From: Natronolimnobius sp. AArcel1
GTDB taxonomy: Archaea; Halobacteriota; Halobacteria; Halobacteriales; Natrialbaceae
Direction of reading: 5' to 3'
Length of the DNA stretch: 64,000 nt
Assembly (NCBI RefSeq): GCF_011043775.1
Contig: NZ_JAAKXY010000004.1
Span: forward strand, 310,001-374,000
Of the stretch, positions 47,238 to 56,500 are shown piece by piece. Made by a program: the position numbers and the translations under genes. The notes beneath the pieces are model-generated. The model was given only the letters and a program-made list of their open reading frames with translations. It was not told the DNA's origin and did no database searches. Position 1 is the first letter of the stretch. Every line of letters starts with the position of its first letter.

Positions 47238-48902
47238 ATGACTATGTCCGGAATCGACAGGAAAGCGTCTCACCTGGAGGCTGAGTACGGTGCTGCCGTC
47301 GCGAACCTCGCCATCGACCGCGATGCCGTCGACCGCGCGAGCGACCTCGTCGGCCTCCACAGTGACGACCAGCAACGACTCGAGTCACTCGAGTCCGTCT
47401 TCGAGACCGCCCGCGAAGAAACCCCCGCGGCGTACGCGAACACGCTTCGCGCACAGCCCGCCGTCAGCGAGGCACTCGACCAAACCGAGACGACCGAACA
47501 GGCGCTCGAGGCAGACTGCCGTGCGTATCTCGACGCGCTCGAGAGTGGGGCCATCGATTCTGACGGCCTGACAGCCCGCCTGCAGGCACAGTCGGCCGCA
47601 CCGGCGCTGTTCGAAGCGGGACCAGACGCCTACCTCGGCTCGTTCGGCGTCATCTACGAACAGCTCCTCGAGGCGATTGCAGCCGACGTGACGGCCGAAT
47701 ACGAGGCGACAGAGACGGAATCGTCCAGCGCCGGTTCGCGGCTCAAGCGCCTGACTGATGGCGGCGCTGCGACGGCCTCGAGCGTCGAGGCACCAGTCGA
47801 AACGGCCGTCGAGACGGTCGCAGACCGAACACTTGCAGCCCTGCGCGTGACGATGGTCGACCAGCAGGTTGGACTCCGCGCCTATGAGGCCGCACGCGAG
47901 GACCAACTCGAGGCGTACGAGGCTGAACTCGCCGAGAAAGAAGCGGAGATCGAGGAGTACGAAGCCAAACTCGCAGAGAAGGACGCGGCAATCGAAGAGT
48001 ACGAAGCCAAAATCGAAGACCAGGACCAAGCGCGTGGCGACGTTGAATCCGCCCGCGACAGTATCCGGCGCACGCTCGAGGCGATCAGCGACTCGGCGAA
48101 GCAAGCCAGTGCAGGGACGGGACAGATCGAGTCGGTTGCGACCGAGCAGTCCGAGTCAATGAGCGAAATCGCCCGCGAAGTGTCGGGACTGTCGGCGACG
48201 GTCGAAGAGATCGCCTCGAACGCAGAGGAGGTCAGCGCGACCAGTGAGCAGGCCGAAGACATCGCTGGGGATACGACCGCGACCGCAGAGGAAGCGATCG
48301 ACAAAATGGAAGGCGTCCAAGAAGCAGCGGGCGAGGTGACCGACGATGTCGAAGAGCTTCGACAGGGCGTCCAGCGGATCGACGAAATCGTCGAGGTCAT
48401 CAACAACATCGCGGATCAGACGAACCTGCTCGCGCTCAACGCCTCGATCGAGGCCGCAACCGCGGGCGAGGCAGGCGACGGGTTCGCTGTCGTCGCGGAC
48501 GAGGTCAAAAGTCTCGCCGAGGAGTCCCAGGAGGAAGCGGCAAACATCGAGCGGATGGTCGATCGCATTCAGGACGACACCGAAGAGACCGTCGACAGCC
48601 TCGAGGCGGCAAACGAGGAGATCGACGACGGCGTTGAACTGGTCGAAGAGACCGTCGACAACCTCGGGCGGATCGAAGAGTCGATCGGCGAGGCCAGCAC
48701 GGGAATTCAGGAGGTCGCCGTTGCGACAGACGATCAGGCCGCAAGCACCGAAGAGGTCGCGAGCATGACCGACAGCGCGATGGAGCGCACCCAACAGATC
48801 GCAAGCGGGGCCGACGAAATCGACGCCATGACCGACCGACTGCGTGACCTCGTCGACGACGCCGACGACGAACTCGAGCGCCTCGAGCACGCGGAGAACT
48901 AA
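47238..48902 (+). CDS. Soluble methyl-accepting transducer with globin-like sensor domain
   Basis: A 554-residue protein without membrane helices. Residues about 10-215 follow the layout of HemAT globin-coupled sensors ([60 protein letters not shown]). The stretch that carries the proximal heme histidine in HemAT reads [17 protein letters not shown] and has no His. A coiled-coil linker ([20 protein letters not shown]) leads to the signalling tip ([20 protein letters not shown]). It probably signals to CheA via CheW, whose gene begins two bases after its stop. Confidence 0.9.
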
Positions 48903-48903
48903 C

Positions 48904-49374
48904 ATGTCTACATCGAAGCACCCACACGCCGACGAACCGGAACAGGCTGAGCCGACCGAGCAACCACAGAGCGCACACGTCCTCGAGTTTACGCTGGGCG
49001 AGAACCGCTACTGTGTCGATATCGGCTACGTCGCCGAGATCGTCAACACGGAGCAGTTGACGGCGGTGCCAAACACAGCCGATCACGTCGAGGGCGTCAT
49101 GGATCTGCGCGGCGAGACGACGAAGATCGTCAACCTGCGGACGATCTTCGGCGAGCGCGACGAAGACGAGGAACTCGGGAGCCGTATCATCGTCTTCAAG
49201 CGAAAGCGTGGCTCGAACGAGCGAATCGGCTGGCTCGCCGACGAAGTGTATCAGGTACAGGAAGTCCGAACTGACGCGGTCGACACCTCTGTCGACGGCG
49301 AGGGGATCGCAGGCGTCATCCGCCGCGAAGACGAGTTCGTCTTCTGGATCGATCCGACGAGCGTTCGCGTCTGA
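48904..49374 (+). CDS. cheW: Chemotaxis adaptor CheW (first)
   Basis: A 156-residue CheW domain: VLEFTLGENRYCVDIGYVAEIV, VEGVMDLRGETTKIVNLRTIF and WIDPTSVRV. It couples transducers to CheA. It is cotranscribed with the globin-like transducer (one-base gap between stop and ATG). The ATG at 48904 is used. Upstream extension would overlap the transducer in another frame. Confidence 0.95.
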   Translation: MSTSKHPHADEPEQAEPTEQPQSAHVLEFTLGENRYCVDIGYVAEIVNTEQLTAVPNTADHVEGVMDLRGETTKIVNLRTIFGERDEDEELGSRIIVFKRKRGSNERIGWLADEVYQVQEVRTDAVDTSVDGEGIAGVIRREDEFVFWIDPTSVRV

Positions 49375-49390: not shown

Positions 49391-50932
49391 CTACTCGTCT
49401 GCTGTTTGTAACTCGTCAACACGATCGACGAGTTGATCGATCGTTTGTTCCTGCGTGTCCGTTGCATCGACGATTCGATCAGCCGCGGCTTCGCTTGCTT
49501 CGGAGCGATCGCGAACCGTCTCGATCGTCGCGGTGAGTTCCTCGACACTCGCCGACTGATCGTCGATGACGCGAGCGACTTCCGCAATACCAGTCGCGGC
49601 TTCATCGACCGAGTCCTCGATCACCTCGAGTGCGTCGACAGTCGTTTCGATCTGTGTCGCCGTGTGCTCGATGCGGTCATGTGAGCGCTCGACTGCAGCG
49701 GTCGTGGTATCGGATTGAGCGTGTAACGCCTCGAGGTTCGCCGTGATTTCGTCGGTGTGGCGCTGTGTCTCGTCGGCCAGTTCCTTGACGTGATTTGCGA
49801 CGACGCCAAAGCCATCGCCGCTGTCGCCCGCTCGCGCCGCCTCGATGTTCGCGTTGAGCGCGAGTAAGTTCGTCTCGTCGGCCACGTCTGCAATGACATC
49901 AACGACCTGCTCAATTTCGTCCATCCGTGTCGCTAGCGCGTCGACGTGGTCGACGAGGTCCTCGCCAATGGAGACGACATCGTCGGTCGCCGCCCGGGCG
50001 TTCGCTCCTGCCTCGAGGCCGTCGGCGACGGCTGCCTGTGCCTCAGTTGCGGCAGTGTCCACCTCGTCAGCCTGCGCGGTAACCTCCTCCATGCCGGCCG
50101 CAAACGACTGCATCTCGCCGACGGCGTCCTCGAGAAGGCCGTGCTGTTCGCCGACGTTGGTAGCGATGTCGTCCGCTGCGGCGCTCGTGTCATCGACGGC
50201 TGCCTGCATTTCCCCCGTCTGGTCGGTGACGCGCCCGGCCAGCGTCTCGAGGCTGTTGACCATCTCGTTGACGCCGTCGATAACCGCGAGCAGATCGCCC
50301 TCGAGCGGGTCGAACGCCGCGTTGTGTTCAACGCGAGCGGTAAGGTCGCCGTCACTGATCTCGGCTGCGGTCGCGTTGATTTCGGTAACGAGGGCTGCCG
50401 TGGCGTCCCGTTCCGCGACGATAGCCGTCTGGTCGACGACGACTTCGATGACGCCGAGTAACTCCTCGCCGTCGTACAGTGGCGTCGCCGAAAAGTCGAT
50501 GTGTTTCTCCGCGCCGTGATGGTCGACCATCGTACTCGTATCGCCGTATCGATTCTGTGCGGGATCACGGCGCTCAACGCCGAACTCGAGGTGGGCACGT
50601 TCGGGTGCCTGTAACACCTTGTCCGCGAGCGTGTCGGCGCGGCGGCCATCCGGATAAAAGTGCTCGGAGGCATGTTCGTGGCCGAGCGCCGTCTCGCGGT
50701 CGACGCCGGTTAGTTCGGCAAGTGCACTGTTCCACTCGATGATGACGCCGTCGGCGTCGAGGATAAACGTCGGCACACCGGTCGCATCGAACAGTTGCTG
50801 ATAGCCAGCCCGACGCACTAGATCGCCCTGTGCAGCGGCTACCCCGTCGGCGCGTGTCGATTCCCCAGACGCTGACGCTCGAGACGCAGCACTCGAGTCG
50901 TCGGATCGATCACCTACCCGCGGTTGTGACAT
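49391..50932 (-). CDS. Soluble PAS-domain methyl-accepting transducer
   Basis: A 513-residue protein without membrane helices. Residues 1-40 are disordered, residues about 42-165 are a PAS domain ([42 protein letters not shown]), followed by a HAMP-like segment and a methyl-accepting tip ([20 protein letters not shown]). It senses an internal signal and reports to CheA. It runs opposite to cheW and its start faces the second CheW gene's 3' end. Confidence 0.93.
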
Positions 50933-51012: not shown

Positions 51013-52149
51013 TCAGACGCGTTGTTCGTGGCCGATCTCGCCGAGGCCGTGGTCCATGCTCGTGTTTTCGATGAGGTCGTCGACCGCGAGCCAGGCAACG
51101 AGTGCCGTCTCGCCGTTGACCTCTTTTTTGATGATGCCGTCAACGTATTCGTGTTGGCCGGTACCGCCGTCCATGACCGAGCCTGTGTCGTCAATCTGGG
51201 ACTCGCGGTAGGTCACGGCCTGTGAGACGTCCGTAACGCGGATGCCGAGTTTCTGCGTGTCGTCATCGCGCTCTAAGACGACAATATAGTGGTCATCAGA
51301 TGGTTCGTTGCGCTCGACATCGAGCATCGCCGTCGGATCGAGCACACCCGTGATCTCGCCGCGCAGGTCGGTTACACCGTCAATTGCGTCCGGCCCGCGT
51401 GGGAAGCGGGTGATCTCTTTCATCTCAACGATCGCGCTGATGCGGTCGATCTCGATCGCATAGCGGTTCTCGTTGAGGAAAAACTCGAGCATCTGGACCG
51501 TCTCCTCGTCGTTGTGCGCCGAGGCGACGAGCGAGTTGTCGCGGTCGAACACCTGCTCGCCGTCGGCCGTCGCTTCGCCGTAGGTGTTTGCACCCTGGCC
51601 GATCGCCGTCGCGTCGACGGTCGCTTCACCAACGCGTTCGTCGATCGTAACCGTATCCGACATCCCCGCGATTGCACCCTGCAGTGAGGCCGCCGCGACG
51701 CCGTCGTTCTGTTCGTCAGTCGATGGCTCGAGGGTGCGCTCGTCGTAGGTGACTGTCTCACCGGCGCTGTCAGCGTCGTCGCCGCTGGTGTCAGTTTCTG
51801 CGCCCTCACCTGCAGCCACAGCATCGTCAGTTGTAGACTCGTTGGCTTCGCTCGAGTCAGCAGGTTCTGACTCGTCAACGTCACCGGTTTCGTCCGGTTC
51901 GTCGTCCCCGGCGGCTGCGTTTTCATCAGCCGTGTCTGCGTCATCATCAGCCGCATCGACGGCATCGTCGTCGGTAGCCGCGTCTGGTGCGTGCGTTTCA
52001 GCACTCGAGTCAGTCTCATCCACATCGCCGTCAGTACCGACGGTGGTCTCCTCGGGCGTCTCCGCATCGTCCCCGTCCTCGTTCGAGTCGCTCGAGTCGC
52101 TTGTGCGATTCCGAATGTTTCGGATTCGTTCGGCTCTGTCGTCAGTCAT
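51013..52149 (-). CDS. cheW: CheW domain protein with long acidic extension (second CheW)
   Basis: A 378-residue protein. Residues 1 to about 140 are an Asp/Glu/Ser/Thr-rich acidic extension, followed by a short segment and the CheW domain (about 215-360): QMLEFFLNENRYAIEIDRIS, GVTDLRGEITGVLDPTAML and ALVAWLAVDDLIE. Its start overlaps the ParA stop (ATGA), so it is coupled with the ParA ATPase. The extension is far longer than in normal CheW (about 150 residues total). Confidence 0.92.
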   Translation of the reverse strand: MTDDRAERIRNIRNRTSDSSDSNEDGDDAETPEETTVGTDGDVDETDSSAETHAPDAATDDDAVDAADDDADTADENAAAGDDEPDETGDVDESEPADSSEANESTTDDAVAAGEGAETDTSGDDADSAGETVTYDERTLEPSTDEQNDGVAAASLQGAIAGMSDTVTIDERVGEATVDATAIGQGANTYGEATADGEQVFDRDNSLVASAHNDEETVQMLEFFLNENRYAIEIDRISAIVEMKEITRFPRGPDAIDGVTDLRGEITGVLDPTAMLDVERNEPSDDHYIVVLERDDDTQKLGIRVTDVSQAVTYRESQIDDTGSVMDGGTGQHEYVDGIIKKEVNGETALVAWLAVDDLIENTSMDHGLGEIGHEQRV

Positions 52150-52946
52150 GCCGGCACCTCTCTGTCTCGGGTCGTAACGCGTGTCTCAATCGTCTCAGCC
52201 ATTGTTGTAAACTCCGCTTGCATATCGACTTCCTCTTCGACCGCAAACACCGATGAGCCGGCTTCGAACGCCCGCTGGAGCGCGACTCGCTTGCGGATCT
52301 CGAACAGTGGCACGTCCGGCAGCGCCTCGTCGAACCACTCGAGCATCTGGTCCGCCTGATTCGTGTGTTCGACGCGGTTTGCGACGAGTGCAATCGGCTC
52401 GATCTGGACATCGTGGTCCATTTCGAGCGAGCCAGTGTAATCGAACAGTAACTCGAGCGAGCGCTTGCTCGTCGATTCGGCGAGTGCGGGGATCACGAGC
52501 TGTTCGGTCGCACAGAGTGCGTTATCGGTGATTAACCCGAGTTGCGGTGGACAGTCAACGACGACAAAATCGTAGCCACGGGCCGCTTCGAGCGAACTGA
52601 GAAGGGCGTCGAGTTGCATCTCAGCGTCGTCCTGTTCGACGAGGACCGAGTGCGCGGCGTTCATGTCGACGTTGCTCGCGATGACGTCCATCTCGGGGTG
52701 GTCGTAGACCAACTCCTCGGCGGTGACACTCGTCGGATCGACGAGGGCGTCAAGCAGCGTCGGCGGCTCAGCGTCGTACGCCTCGAGCAAGCCGAGCCCC
52801 TCGGTTGCGTTGCCCTGTGGGTCCAGGTCGACGAACAGGACGTTCTGTCCGCGTTCGTTCAACGCACCGGCGAGGTTGATCGCCACGGTCGTCTTGCCGA
52901 CACCGCCTTTCTGATTTGTCACACACAGCCGAGCAGATCCCGCCAT
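52146..52946 (-). CDS. ParA/MinD family ATPase of the chemotaxis locus
   Basis: A 266-residue protein with the deviant Walker A QKGGVGKTTVAINLAGAL, then VDLDPQGNATEGLG, DFVVVDCPPQLG and ALVANRVEHTN. ParA proteins position DNA or arrays on the nucleoid or pole. The ATGA overlap with the CheW gene and the surrounding che genes suggest array positioning rather than plasmid partition. No ParB is adjacent. The ATG at 52946 is chosen (MAGSARLCVTNQKGG). Confidence 0.93.
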   Translation of the reverse strand: MAGSARLCVTNQKGGVGKTTVAINLAGALNERGQNVLFVDLDPQGNATEGLGLLEAYDAEPPTLLDALVDPTSVTAEELVYDHPEMDVIASNVDMNAAHSVLVEQDDAEMQLDALLSSLEAARGYDFVVVDCPPQLGLITDNALCATEQLVIPALAESTSKRSLELLFDYTGSLEMDHDVQIEPIALVANRVEHTNQADQMLEWFDEALPDVPLFEIRKRVALQRAFEAGSSVFAVEEEVDMQAEFTTMAETIETRVTTRDREVPA

Positions 52947-53444: not shown

Positions 53445-54509
53445 ATGGTCCGAGCCGTCATCGCTGACGACTCTGCGGTCATGCGCGAAACGCTCGGAAA
53501 GATTCTCGAGGCCGGCGGCTTAGACGTCGTCGGTCGGGCGAAAAACGGCACTGAAGCGGTCGAGCTCATTACCGATCTCGAGCCCGATGTTGCAACGATC
53601 GACATCCAGATGCCGGGGCTGACTGGCCATGAGGTGATTGAACAGGTGATGGCCACAAAGCCGACGCCGATGCTGGTTATCAGTTCACAGACAACGAAAA
53701 ACGCGGATGCGACCTTCGACGCGCTCGAGGCGGGCGCAGTCGACTTTATCGCGAAACCATCTGGGGACAACTCGGTTGATATCTGGTCGAAACAGGACGA
53801 GATCGTCGATCAGGTGCGGGCAGTCGCACAGGCAGCAGTCGGGCAGGTAGAGACAAACTCGCGACCGACACGCGAGACACAGCGCCCCGAGTCGACGGCG
53901 ATCGACGTTTCGGCGGAGTTCCCGAACGATCCGACGCTGATCATCGGTGCATCGACTGGCGGCCCGCGGGTCGTCGAACAGGTGCTCTCCGAGCTTCCCG
54001 AGCGAGCAGGGTTACGAATTCTGGTAGTTCAACACATGGCTGATCATTATACGGAACGGTTTGCGAATCGACTGAACGAACGAACGACCTACGAGATCAA
54101 AGAAGCCCGCGAGACCGAGACGGTCGGTCCGGGCGAGGCGCTCTTGGCGAAAGGCGGCACACATATGGCCGTCTCCGGCTGGTCTCGAGGCGAACTGACC
54201 GTGGTCCACGACGACGGCCCGCAGCGACACAACGTCAAGCCAGCAATCGACGTGACGATGGAGACAGCCGCTGACACCGTCCGTGGCAATCTCGCGGGCG
54301 TCATCATGACCGGCATGGGCGCAGATGGTGCCGACGGACTGGCAGCGATCAAAGACGCTGGTGGCAAAGCTATCGTCCAAGACGAGGCTACCTCTCGCGT
54401 CTACGGCATGCCCAAAGTCGCCGCTGAGCGCGTCGACGTGGATATGACGCTGCCGAAGGACCGACTCGCCGAGGGCGTTGTCAACGCCTTCCGGGGGTGG
54501 TCCGCATGA
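53445..54509 (+). CDS. cheB: Chemotaxis response regulator and methylesterase CheB
   Basis: A 354-residue protein: a receiver domain with Asp53 as phosphate acceptor (TIDIQMPG), a linker, then the methylesterase domain with catalytic Ser170 (GASTGG), His197 (VQHMADH) and Asp294 (MGADGADG). It removes methyl groups from transducers for adaptation. Its stop overlaps the cheA start by ATGA. Confidence 0.97.
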   Translation: MVRAVIADDSAVMRETLGKILEAGGLDVVGRAKNGTEAVELITDLEPDVATIDIQMPGLTGHEVIEQVMATKPTPMLVISSQTTKNADATFDALEAGAVDFIAKPSGDNSVDIWSKQDEIVDQVRAVAQAAVGQVETNSRPTRETQRPESTAIDVSAEFPNDPTLIIGASTGGPRVVEQVLSELPERAGLRILVVQHMADHYTERFANRLNERTTYEIKEARETETVGPGEALLAKGGTHMAVSGWSRGELTVVHDDGPQRHNVKPAIDVTMETAADTVRGNLAGVIMTGMGADGADGLAAIKDAGGKAIVQDEATSRVYGMPKVAAERVDVDMTLPKDRLAEGVVNAFRGWSA

Positions 54510-56500
54510 GCGACGCCATGAGCACGTTCGTTCAGGAAAGTCAAGAGGATATCCGCAAACTCAACAACGCCCTGCTCGACCTCGAGGACGACCCCTCGAG
54601 TTCGGATGCCATCGAGACGGTGTTCCGAGTCGCACACAACCTGAAAGGCAATTTCGGCGTGATGGGCTATACGAAAGCGAGCAATCAGGCCCACGCAATC
54701 GAGGACTTACTCGATTGTATCCGCGATGGCGAACTCGCCGTCACCGGCGAGCGGATGGACCTTATCTTCCGCGGCGTCGACAACCTCGAGGCGATGGTCA
54801 ACGAGATTTCGGCCACTGGCGAGACAGAAACCGAGCCGGAGGAGTCCATCGCAGAGATTCGCGAGTCGATTGAGGCGGGCGACGACGGCGACGCCGTGGC
54901 CGCTGGCGACACTGCTGATGACGACGCAGACGCCGCAGTCGACGGCCACGAGGTGCCACTCGAGGCGCTCGCCGAGGACGTCGATCTCGAGGACGACGCA
55001 CAACTGTACCGCGCGGTCATCGACATCGACAACGAGGACGCGCCACACGTCGACGCGATGTTCGTCCTCGATGCGACCAACGATGAGTACGACCTCGTCC
55101 GAACGGTCCCCGGCGACGACATTCTCGAGTCCGACGAGTTCGGTGGCGTCTTCGATGCGTATCTGTTGACCGACTCGGTCGTCACCGCCGACGACATCGC
55201 GGGCTTCTACGAGGAGAGTCGCTACGTCGCCGACGTCAATGTCGAGTCCGTCACGGACGACGTCCTCGCCGGGCCGGCCGATGAGAGCGACGACGCAGAC
55301 GAACAAGAGGCGGACGACGACAGTTCCGGTAGCAGTTCCGGCGCCTCACAGGGCACCCAGGAAGTCGAGTCCATCCGCGTCGACGTCGATCAGGTCGACC
55401 AACTTTACAACCAAGTCGAAGAGATGGTCACCAGCCGGATCAAGCTCCGTAAGATCATCGAGGAACACAACCTCGTCGAAGCTGAAGACGAACTCGAGGA
55501 ACACGGCAAGATCACCTCGAGTCTCCAGGATACCGTCCTCGAGATTCGACTGGTGCCACTGAAGAAAATCGTCGGTAACTTCCCGCGAGTCGTCCGGGAC
55601 ATCTCCCGCGATCAGGGCAAGGAAATCGACTTCCAGATGGATGGCGTTGATATCGAGATGGATCGCTCGATCCTGAACGAACTGGGTGATCCGCTGATGC
55701 ACCTCATTCGAAATGCGGTCGATCACGGAATCGAGTCACCCGACGAGCGCGAGGCAAATGGCAAGTCACGCGAGGGGACGATCAAACTCATCGGTGAGCG
55801 CGAACGCGACCGCGTCTCGATCACCGTCGAAGACGACGGCAAGGGTCTCGAGGTCGAAGAGATTCGAGAGAAGGCAGTCGAGCAAGGTGTCAAGACCGAG
55901 GAGGAAGCCGCCGTACTCGATGACTCGGAAGTGTACGATCTCATTTTCCACCCTGGCTTCTCAACGACCGAGGAGGTCACCGAGGTCAGCGGCCGTGGCG
56001 TCGGCATGGACGTCGTGAATCAGGTCGTCCGCGGTGTCGATGGCTCGATCAACGTCGAAAGCGAACCCGGCAACGGAACGAGCATTACGCTGATGCTACC
56101 CGTCAGCGTCGCCATTGTTCGCGTCCTGTTCGTTACGGTTGGTGACGAGAACTACGGCGTCCCGATCAAAAACATCGACGAAATCTCGGAGTTCGCAGAC
56201 GTCTCGGTCGAATCTGTCGAGGGACGGCCGACGATCACGCACGACGGCAACGTCTTCCCACTACTCTCGCTCGGTGAGCACCTCGATGTACCCGAAACTG
56301 ACCCCGGCGAGGACGACATGGTCATCCGGATCAAGGACACGGTTCGGCAGGTCTGTCTGCGCTGTTCTGACGTCGTCGGCCAAGAAGAGGTCGTCATCAA
56401 GCCGTTCGAGGGTATCCTGAGCGGTGCCCCAGGCATCAGCGGTGCGTCGGTACTTGGTGAAGGTGAAGTCGTGATGATCCTCGACGTCGAAACGCTCTAA
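54506..56500 (+). CDS. cheA: Chemotaxis histidine kinase CheA
   Basis: A 664-residue kinase. The HPt domain has His44 in RVAHNLKGNFG, then an acidic linker and P2-like region (about 155-265), the dimerisation domain (VDVDQVDQLYNQVEEMVTSR), the ATP-binding domain (LIRNAVDHGIESPDERE, VEDDGKGLEVEEIREKA, GRGVGMDVVNQVV) and a C-terminal CheW-like domain. It phosphorylates CheY and CheB. The ATG at 54506 overlaps cheB. Confidence 0.97.
   Translation: MSDAMSTFVQESQEDIRKLNNALLDLEDDPSSSDAIETVFRVAHNLKGNFGVMGYTKASNQAHAIEDLLDCIRDGELAVTGERMDLIFRGVDNLEAMVNEISATGETETEPEESIAEIRESIEAGDDGDAVAAGDTADDDADAAVDGHEVPLEALAEDVDLEDDAQLYRAVIDIDNEDAPHVDAMFVLDATNDEYDLVRTVPGDDILESDEFGGVFDAYLLTDSVVTADDIAGFYEESRYVADVNVESVTDDVLAGPADESDDADEQEADDDSSGSSSGASQGTQEVESIRVDVDQVDQLYNQVEEMVTSRIKLRKIIEEHNLVEAEDELEEHGKITSSLQDTVLEIRLVPLKKIVGNFPRVVRDISRDQGKEIDFQMDGVDIEMDRSILNELGDPLMHLIRNAVDHGIESPDEREANGKSREGTIKLIGERERDRVSITVEDDGKGLEVEEIREKAVEQGVKTEEEAAVLDDSEVYDLIFHPGFSTTEEVTEVSGRGVGMDVVNQVVRGVDGSINVESEPGNGTSITLMLPVSVAIVRVLFVTVGDENYGVPIKNIDEISEFADVSVESVEGRPTITHDGNVFPLLSLGEHLDVPETDPGEDDMVIRIKDTVRQVCLRCSDVVGQEEVVIKPFEGILSGAPGISGASVLGEGEVVMILDVETL

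Follow-up and report, generated by a model that had tools for sequence, protein, structure and literature searches.

ATPases of the ParA/MinD family are known to place chemosensory arrays, ParA homologues in bacteria and MinD4 in Haloferax. In Vibrio and its relatives, the gene for the ParA-like ParC lies directly upstream of that for its partner, ParP, in a chemotaxis operon, and Vibrio ParP joins an N-terminal ParC-interaction domain to a C-terminal CheW/P5-like domain that inserts into the array (PMC5706961). In Halothiobacillus neapolitanus, the partner of ParC is a CheW, the two being encoded by overlapping genes of a chemotaxis operon (Hn0722/Hn0723); the first 30 residues of this CheW were docked in silico (PMC10241942), and the same source cites the PpfA/TlpT pair of Rhodobacter sphaeroides, whose ParA homologue distributes chemosensory clusters across the nucleoid. 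Haloferax volcanii needs MinD4 (and MinD2), of the ParA/MinD family, to place its arrays (PMC11588486). How ATPases of the ParA family acquire new cargoes is the question that we address here with a haloarchaeal ParA–CheW gene pair whose arginine motif, common to plasmid partners, suggests that chemosensory arrays are placed by a machine borrowed from plasmids. We found no report of this archaeal pair in the open-licence papers searched; the genome paper of Natrialba magadii describes two CheW proteins in a che-fla locus, and parA was not found in the part of its text covered here (PMC3403918).

The window, that is, the whole 64,000-nucleotide stretch of DNA analysed, encodes on its minus strand a Soj/ParA-type ATPase of 266 amino acids (parA, 52146..52946, with its ATG at 52946 and the last base of its stop codon at 52146) and a tailed, ParA-linked CheW adaptor of 378 amino acids (cheW, 51013..52149, running from an ATG at 52149 to a stop codon whose last base is 51013). 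The parA start is supported by an MA- start conserved among its relatives. As the first-pass annotation had read it, the stop of parA and the start of cheW overlap by four bases as ATGA (minus strand, 52149..52146), which the coordinates confirm. A GAGGTG within the end of parA, noted by eye in the junction sequence 6–11 bases upstream of the cheW start (52155..52160, minus strand), could be the ribosome-binding site of cheW.

The placement of the pair within a chemotaxis locus also held: the window locus contains two MCPs, a second CheW, CheB, CheA, CheY, CheC and CheF, and a parA-like gene lies immediately upstream of its partner inside such a locus, as in ParC/ParP systems. CheB (53445..54509, plus strand) is the divergent neighbour of parA, CheA occupies 54509..56500 (plus strand), and a PAS-MCP transducer (49391..50932) lies downstream of the pair on the same, minus strand. 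The second CheW (48904..49374, plus strand) is an ordinary one of 156 amino acids that lacks the arginine motif and provides both context and a control; the MCP directly upstream of it (47238-48902) has an N-terminal protoglobin match and looks like a HemAT-type aerotaxis transducer. Archaellin genes lie 8–17 kb outside the window. Where a ParABS system would have a ParB gene beside ParA, the next gene here is cheW, and inspection by eye agrees with the earlier remark that no adjoining open reading frame is ParB-like. A second che region of the same genome (G000:C1:118900-126051) holds two divergent CheW matches and a further CheW match in a 1419-aa open frame, probably CheA.

The window ParA matches AAA_31 (PF13614, E = 2.6e-41) and carries the deviant Walker A motif NQKGGVGKTT, without insertion. 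Its structure model (pLDDT 91.3) has Soj/ParA proteins as nearest folds (Foldseek 9a6n, 8ray, 2bek), with Z scores of 31.9–35.2 against these and about 27 against MinD, so that both motif and fold are those of a Soj-type ParA. It scores well under the cut-off for archaeal MinD (54.8 bits against 201.75 for TIGR01969), and a separate MinD above that cut-off is present in the same genome. Among PHROGs, the only matches were to a generic ParA-like partition family and to a family of unknown function. In an alignment of relatives, R218, R220 and Q224 of a basic stretch (RKR...QR) are invariant. We dropped a residue-level match to the DNA-binding arginines of Soj, for the HMM alignment puts an alanine against the arginine of the Soj-type 'NVRL'.

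The linked CheW has three parts. PF01584 matches at residues 219-361 only (E = 4.6e-22 for the protein, above cut-off; 51067..51495, minus strand), a CheW-like domain that is the predicted array-binding cargo end. Before it run some 200 acidic, variable residues, delimited by alignment and composition as a linker at residues 17-218 (51496..52101, minus strand), and the protein begins with the basic peptide MTDDRAERIRNIRNRT, in which the motif marks residues 5-15, RAERIRNIRNR (52105..52137, minus strand), as the predicted ParA-docking peptide. The linker of family-type CheWs, those paired with close relatives of the window ParA, has a median length of 214 aa with 28% D+E and 3% K+R; linker medians overall are 28–30% D+E, nearly without K and R, and the N-terminus has 30–35% K+R. 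The structure model of the CheW is of low confidence (pLDDT 37.5), and a helix at residues 3-16, weakly predicted with N-terminal blocks averaging 60–71, is a hint only.

Searching 292 Halobacteria genomes for full-length ParA matches of at least 65% identity, we found 19 genomes, the window's own included, all in its own family. They make up 19 of the 74 family rows in the sample (hand count), so the pair is dispensable in many genomes of the family. In all 19 loci cheW overlaps parA by four bases and has the same kind of start. Weaker, split ParA matches outside this family led to a second, diverged form across Haloarculaceae and relatives, whose ParA of about 300 aa reads KGGTGKT and contains an inserted segment of about 30 aa, and which was followed by cheW in the 12 loci first inspected (12/12). 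With a profile of this form and a threshold of E < 1e-140, 45 of 284 genomes gave a match; 42 of the 45 belong to one family (f3, hand count), and a single match (G235, locus L171) had a partition-type partner instead of CheW. In a scan of named genomes, which retained 80 loci, the second form includes Haloarcula, Halosimplex, Halorientalis, Halovenus and Halomicrobium, and the first Natrialba, Natrarchaeobius, Halopiger and Natronorubrum; strong matches to both ParA types occur together in no genome of the two samples (292 and 284). Among distinct rows, the four-base overlap is kept in 26 of 26 family-type loci with a readable next gene and in 69 of 76 Haloarculaceae-type loci. The survey that the first-pass annotation had called for thus found a pair that is common in haloarchaea, not universal.

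The two forms occupy different surroundings. CheA and CheB lie on the other side of the family-type pair in 12 of the 13 loci with flanks, and an MCP with a second CheW in the thirteenth, which disposes of the possibility, raised beforehand, that this ParA always stands beside plasmid genes. No CheA, CheB, CheY or CheC match was found in flanks of up to 6 kb around Haloarculaceae-type pairs; a divergent ArlD/E-domain gene adjoins the pair in 37 of 49 loci, and salactin, an actin homologue, is near it in 30 of the 49, a count that takes in three duplicates of other rows (L063, L083, L101). This lone ArlD/E-domain gene, at L079:4092-5809 and in 36 other loci, has a conserved start, INPRDYDLDELRKMA. 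Salactin filaments of H. salinarum grow outward from the cell poles (PMC10746226), and ParA–CheW, ArlD/E and salactin possibly form a cell-polarity locus.

The N-terminal motif was examined in the genes that follow 135 distinct ParAs. Of these ParAs, 27 (family-type) and 76 (Haloarculaceae-type) are linked to CheW, and the rest are plasmid-type, either short (plB, 25) or long (plA, 7); a group was assigned from the length of the ParA, its Walker A motif and its partner. The counts leave out L002-L008, which are further ParA-like matches in the window genome; L068, L100 and L128 were labelled CheW-linked though their contigs end with the CheW domain out of sight, as was L097, whose CheW domain is in a shifted frame; the N-termini of L029 and L035 were set to the right reading frame, and L023 and L024 were trimmed to the conserved start. 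In L097 (Haloarcula rara) the tail and the CheW domain lie in different frames, the gene being broken or misassembled.

Near the CheW start the motif has the short form R-[AS]-x-R-[ILV]-x-x-x-R; for scoring, the first 60 residues were searched for R-[ASMTN]-x-[RK]-[ILV]-[RKSG]-x-x-[RK]. All 103 ParA-linked CheWs have it (27/27 family-type, 76/76 Haloarculaceae-type), a perfect score that is partly so by construction because the pattern was written after about 50 of the sequences had been seen; weight therefore falls on the controls, which this does not affect. It occurs in none of 758 other open reading frames of the same flanks and in none of 30 ordinary haloarchaeal CheWs, in which up to 150 residues of upstream open frame were searched as well. 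Past the motif, per-position identity is mostly 20–40%. The motif's arginines and alanine are invariant while their codons vary synonymously at third positions, which indicates that selection acts on the peptide; RNA-level constraint behind the conserved N-terminus was rejected on the same ground. Two or three copies of the motif occur in the CheW tails of L041, L042, L100 and L104, which form one ParA subclade.

The same motif marks the partners of plasmid ParAs. The nearest ParAs without a CheW, about 52–61% identical to that of the window, are plasmid ParAs, each followed, mostly with a four-base overlap, by a small protein that begins with the motif (MSDDSRADRLRRRRR and the like) and ends in a short conserved domain. 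Among plasmid-type partners the motif is present in 25/25 plB and 2/7 plA, the other five plA lacking it as written. Three of the small partners tried against Pfam matched no family. Their C-terminus (YMYLPE...EKNRHFYPLVV...GL; L050, L051, L053 and others) is found on many plasmids, annotated as hypothetical. Complete records document the plasmid setting for H. salinarum PHS4, Haloarcula marismortui pNG300 and a Halomarina plasmid, the last with an orc1/cdc6 gene near the partition pair.

The end of the motif separates the groups. It reads R[NK]R in every family-type protein (27/27), in no Haloarculaceae-type (0/76) or plB protein (0/25) and in one plA protein (1/7), and R.G in 72/76 Haloarculaceae-type, 1/25 plB and 0/27 family-type proteins. 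R.G also ends the motif in L082 and L106, plasmid-type partners whose ParAs group with the Haloarculaceae type, so that, at the level of sequence, motif subtype tracks the ParA clade and not the cargo domain. L082 (Halococcus thailandensis, partner after 6912) combines a Haloarculaceae-type ParA and a matching peptide with a partition-type C-terminus and no CheW, and by eye a ParB-like gene follows the cassette; judged from these features, it is a form between plasmid and array cassettes.

These observations bear on how often the pair arose. The ParA tree unites the family-type ParAs in a single clade (95/100) and places L082 and L106 within the Haloarculaceae-type clade (95/93). Forcing both CheW-linked groups into one clade costs 16.7 log units (p-AU 0.0155) with two plasmid rows included and 51.8 log units (p-AU 0.001) with these kept out, p values that are nominal because the question was posed after the tree had been seen; we take the first as modest evidence against a single clade. 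From the sequences, two or more origins of the ParA–CheW pair in haloarchaea appear rather probable. The alternative, one ancestral ParA–CheW cassette in which one ParA type was later replaced or evolved fast, is the less probable account, though one that has to be taken seriously: both groups have the core motif RAxR[IL]RxxR in common, the AU test is post hoc, and the CheW-domain tree, in which family-type CheWs sit on a branch of 3.6 and three 'ordinary' rows (L184-L186) are neighbouring ParA-linked CheWs, does not separate the origins. Against it stand both p values, the different genomic places of the two forms, and subtype motifs that differ between the forms, one recurring in plasmid-type partners of the same ParA clade.

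On the function of the pair, we consider it likely that it is a two-gene positioning cassette in which the docking peptide of a plasmid partner has been joined to a CheW, with arrays as the predicted cargo of ParA. By analogy with the ParP layout, the tailed CheW would serve the ParA of the overlapping gene as its cargo adaptor, the cargo being the chemosensory array. The CheW domain would insert into the chemoreceptor/CheA array and the flexible linker would hold the arginine peptide outward, where it would bind ATP-ParA dimers on the nucleoid and trigger ATP hydrolysis; the nucleoid rather than the membrane is the expected surface, given a Soj-like ParA. Arrays would then be moved, spaced or shared between daughters in the way that a ParA–partner pair handles plasmids, and the gene overlap would cause ParA and CheW to be made together. 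The cassette itself would have arisen when a CheW acquired the ParA-docking peptide from a plasmid partition protein, probably at least twice in haloarchaea. Array positioning by a ParA/CheW pair, which the first-pass annotation had proposed with ParC and PpfA as precedents, is the best supported of the explanations and gains from the ParA-partner peptide at the CheW start; the ATPase itself is close to plasmid ParAs and not a demonstrated orthologue of ParC or PpfA.

The pair might instead be regulatory, binding of ParA to the tail setting the entry of CheW into arrays, or ParA regulating che expression. A second, ordinary CheW in the window genome and in the Haloarculaceae-type genome G055 would fit this, as would Halobacterium CheW2, which binds transducers and not CheA and is proposed to tune signalling (PMC3579733). 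We hold it to be improbable all the same, for the docking peptide matches that of the partners in plasmid partition, proteins known to serve movement, and Haloarculaceae-type pairs adjoin archaellum and salactin genes. That a plasmid ParA was parked by chance in a che locus, lost its partner and came to lie beside a CheW by accident would agree with plasmid ParAs being its nearest relatives outside che loci, and is nevertheless very improbable, since an overlapping cheW in 19/19 genomes means that the pairing is more than chance and 103/103 of these CheWs bear the partner motif.

Returning to array positioning, we lean, if only slightly, towards the fuller statement that on at least two occasions in haloarchaea an array partition machine was made from a plasmid partition cassette, ParA and the docking peptide being kept while CheW took the place of the partner's DNA-cargo domain. 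The plasmid forms persist and, if the statement is true, would allow the course of a cargo switch within the ParA family to be traced and repeated; because plasmid and array versions whose docking peptides match are found side by side in a single archaeal class, the switch is testable by swapping peptides. The reading also predicts a second route, beside MinD4, to place archaeal motility machinery, in lineages seemingly unstudied for it.

Among described systems, ParP resembles the haloarchaeal CheW in pairing an N-terminal part for interaction with the ATPase with a C-terminal array-inserting domain, but its array domain is nearer CheA-P5 than CheW (PMC5706961), whereas the array domain of the window CheW matches ordinary CheW at E = 1.7e-14 and CheA-P5 at E = 1.5. 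We keep the pair apart from ParC/ParP on account of this CheW-like, not P5-like, array domain; the nearest relatives found for the window ParA are haloarchaeal plasmid ParAs. TlpT is a chemoreceptor, so the partner of PpfA is a receptor and not an adaptor. The Halothiobacillus neapolitanus pair is bacterial, and the sections of PMC10241942 drawn on here mention no connection with a motif of plasmid partners. MinD4 of Haloferax volcanii is MinD-type, where the window ParA is Soj-like, and also acts on archaella, with no linked CheW reported in the sections drawn on (PMC11588486). A close counterpart lies on H. salinarum PHS4 (OE_RS13295/OE_RS13300): its ParA is 57% identical to that of the window, its partner overlaps by four bases, and partners of its class have the same N-terminal motif (the 25/25 of plB, a count that the PHS4 partner itself is outside), but the C-terminal end of the partner is a small conserved domain that matches no Pfam family, where that of the window is CheW.
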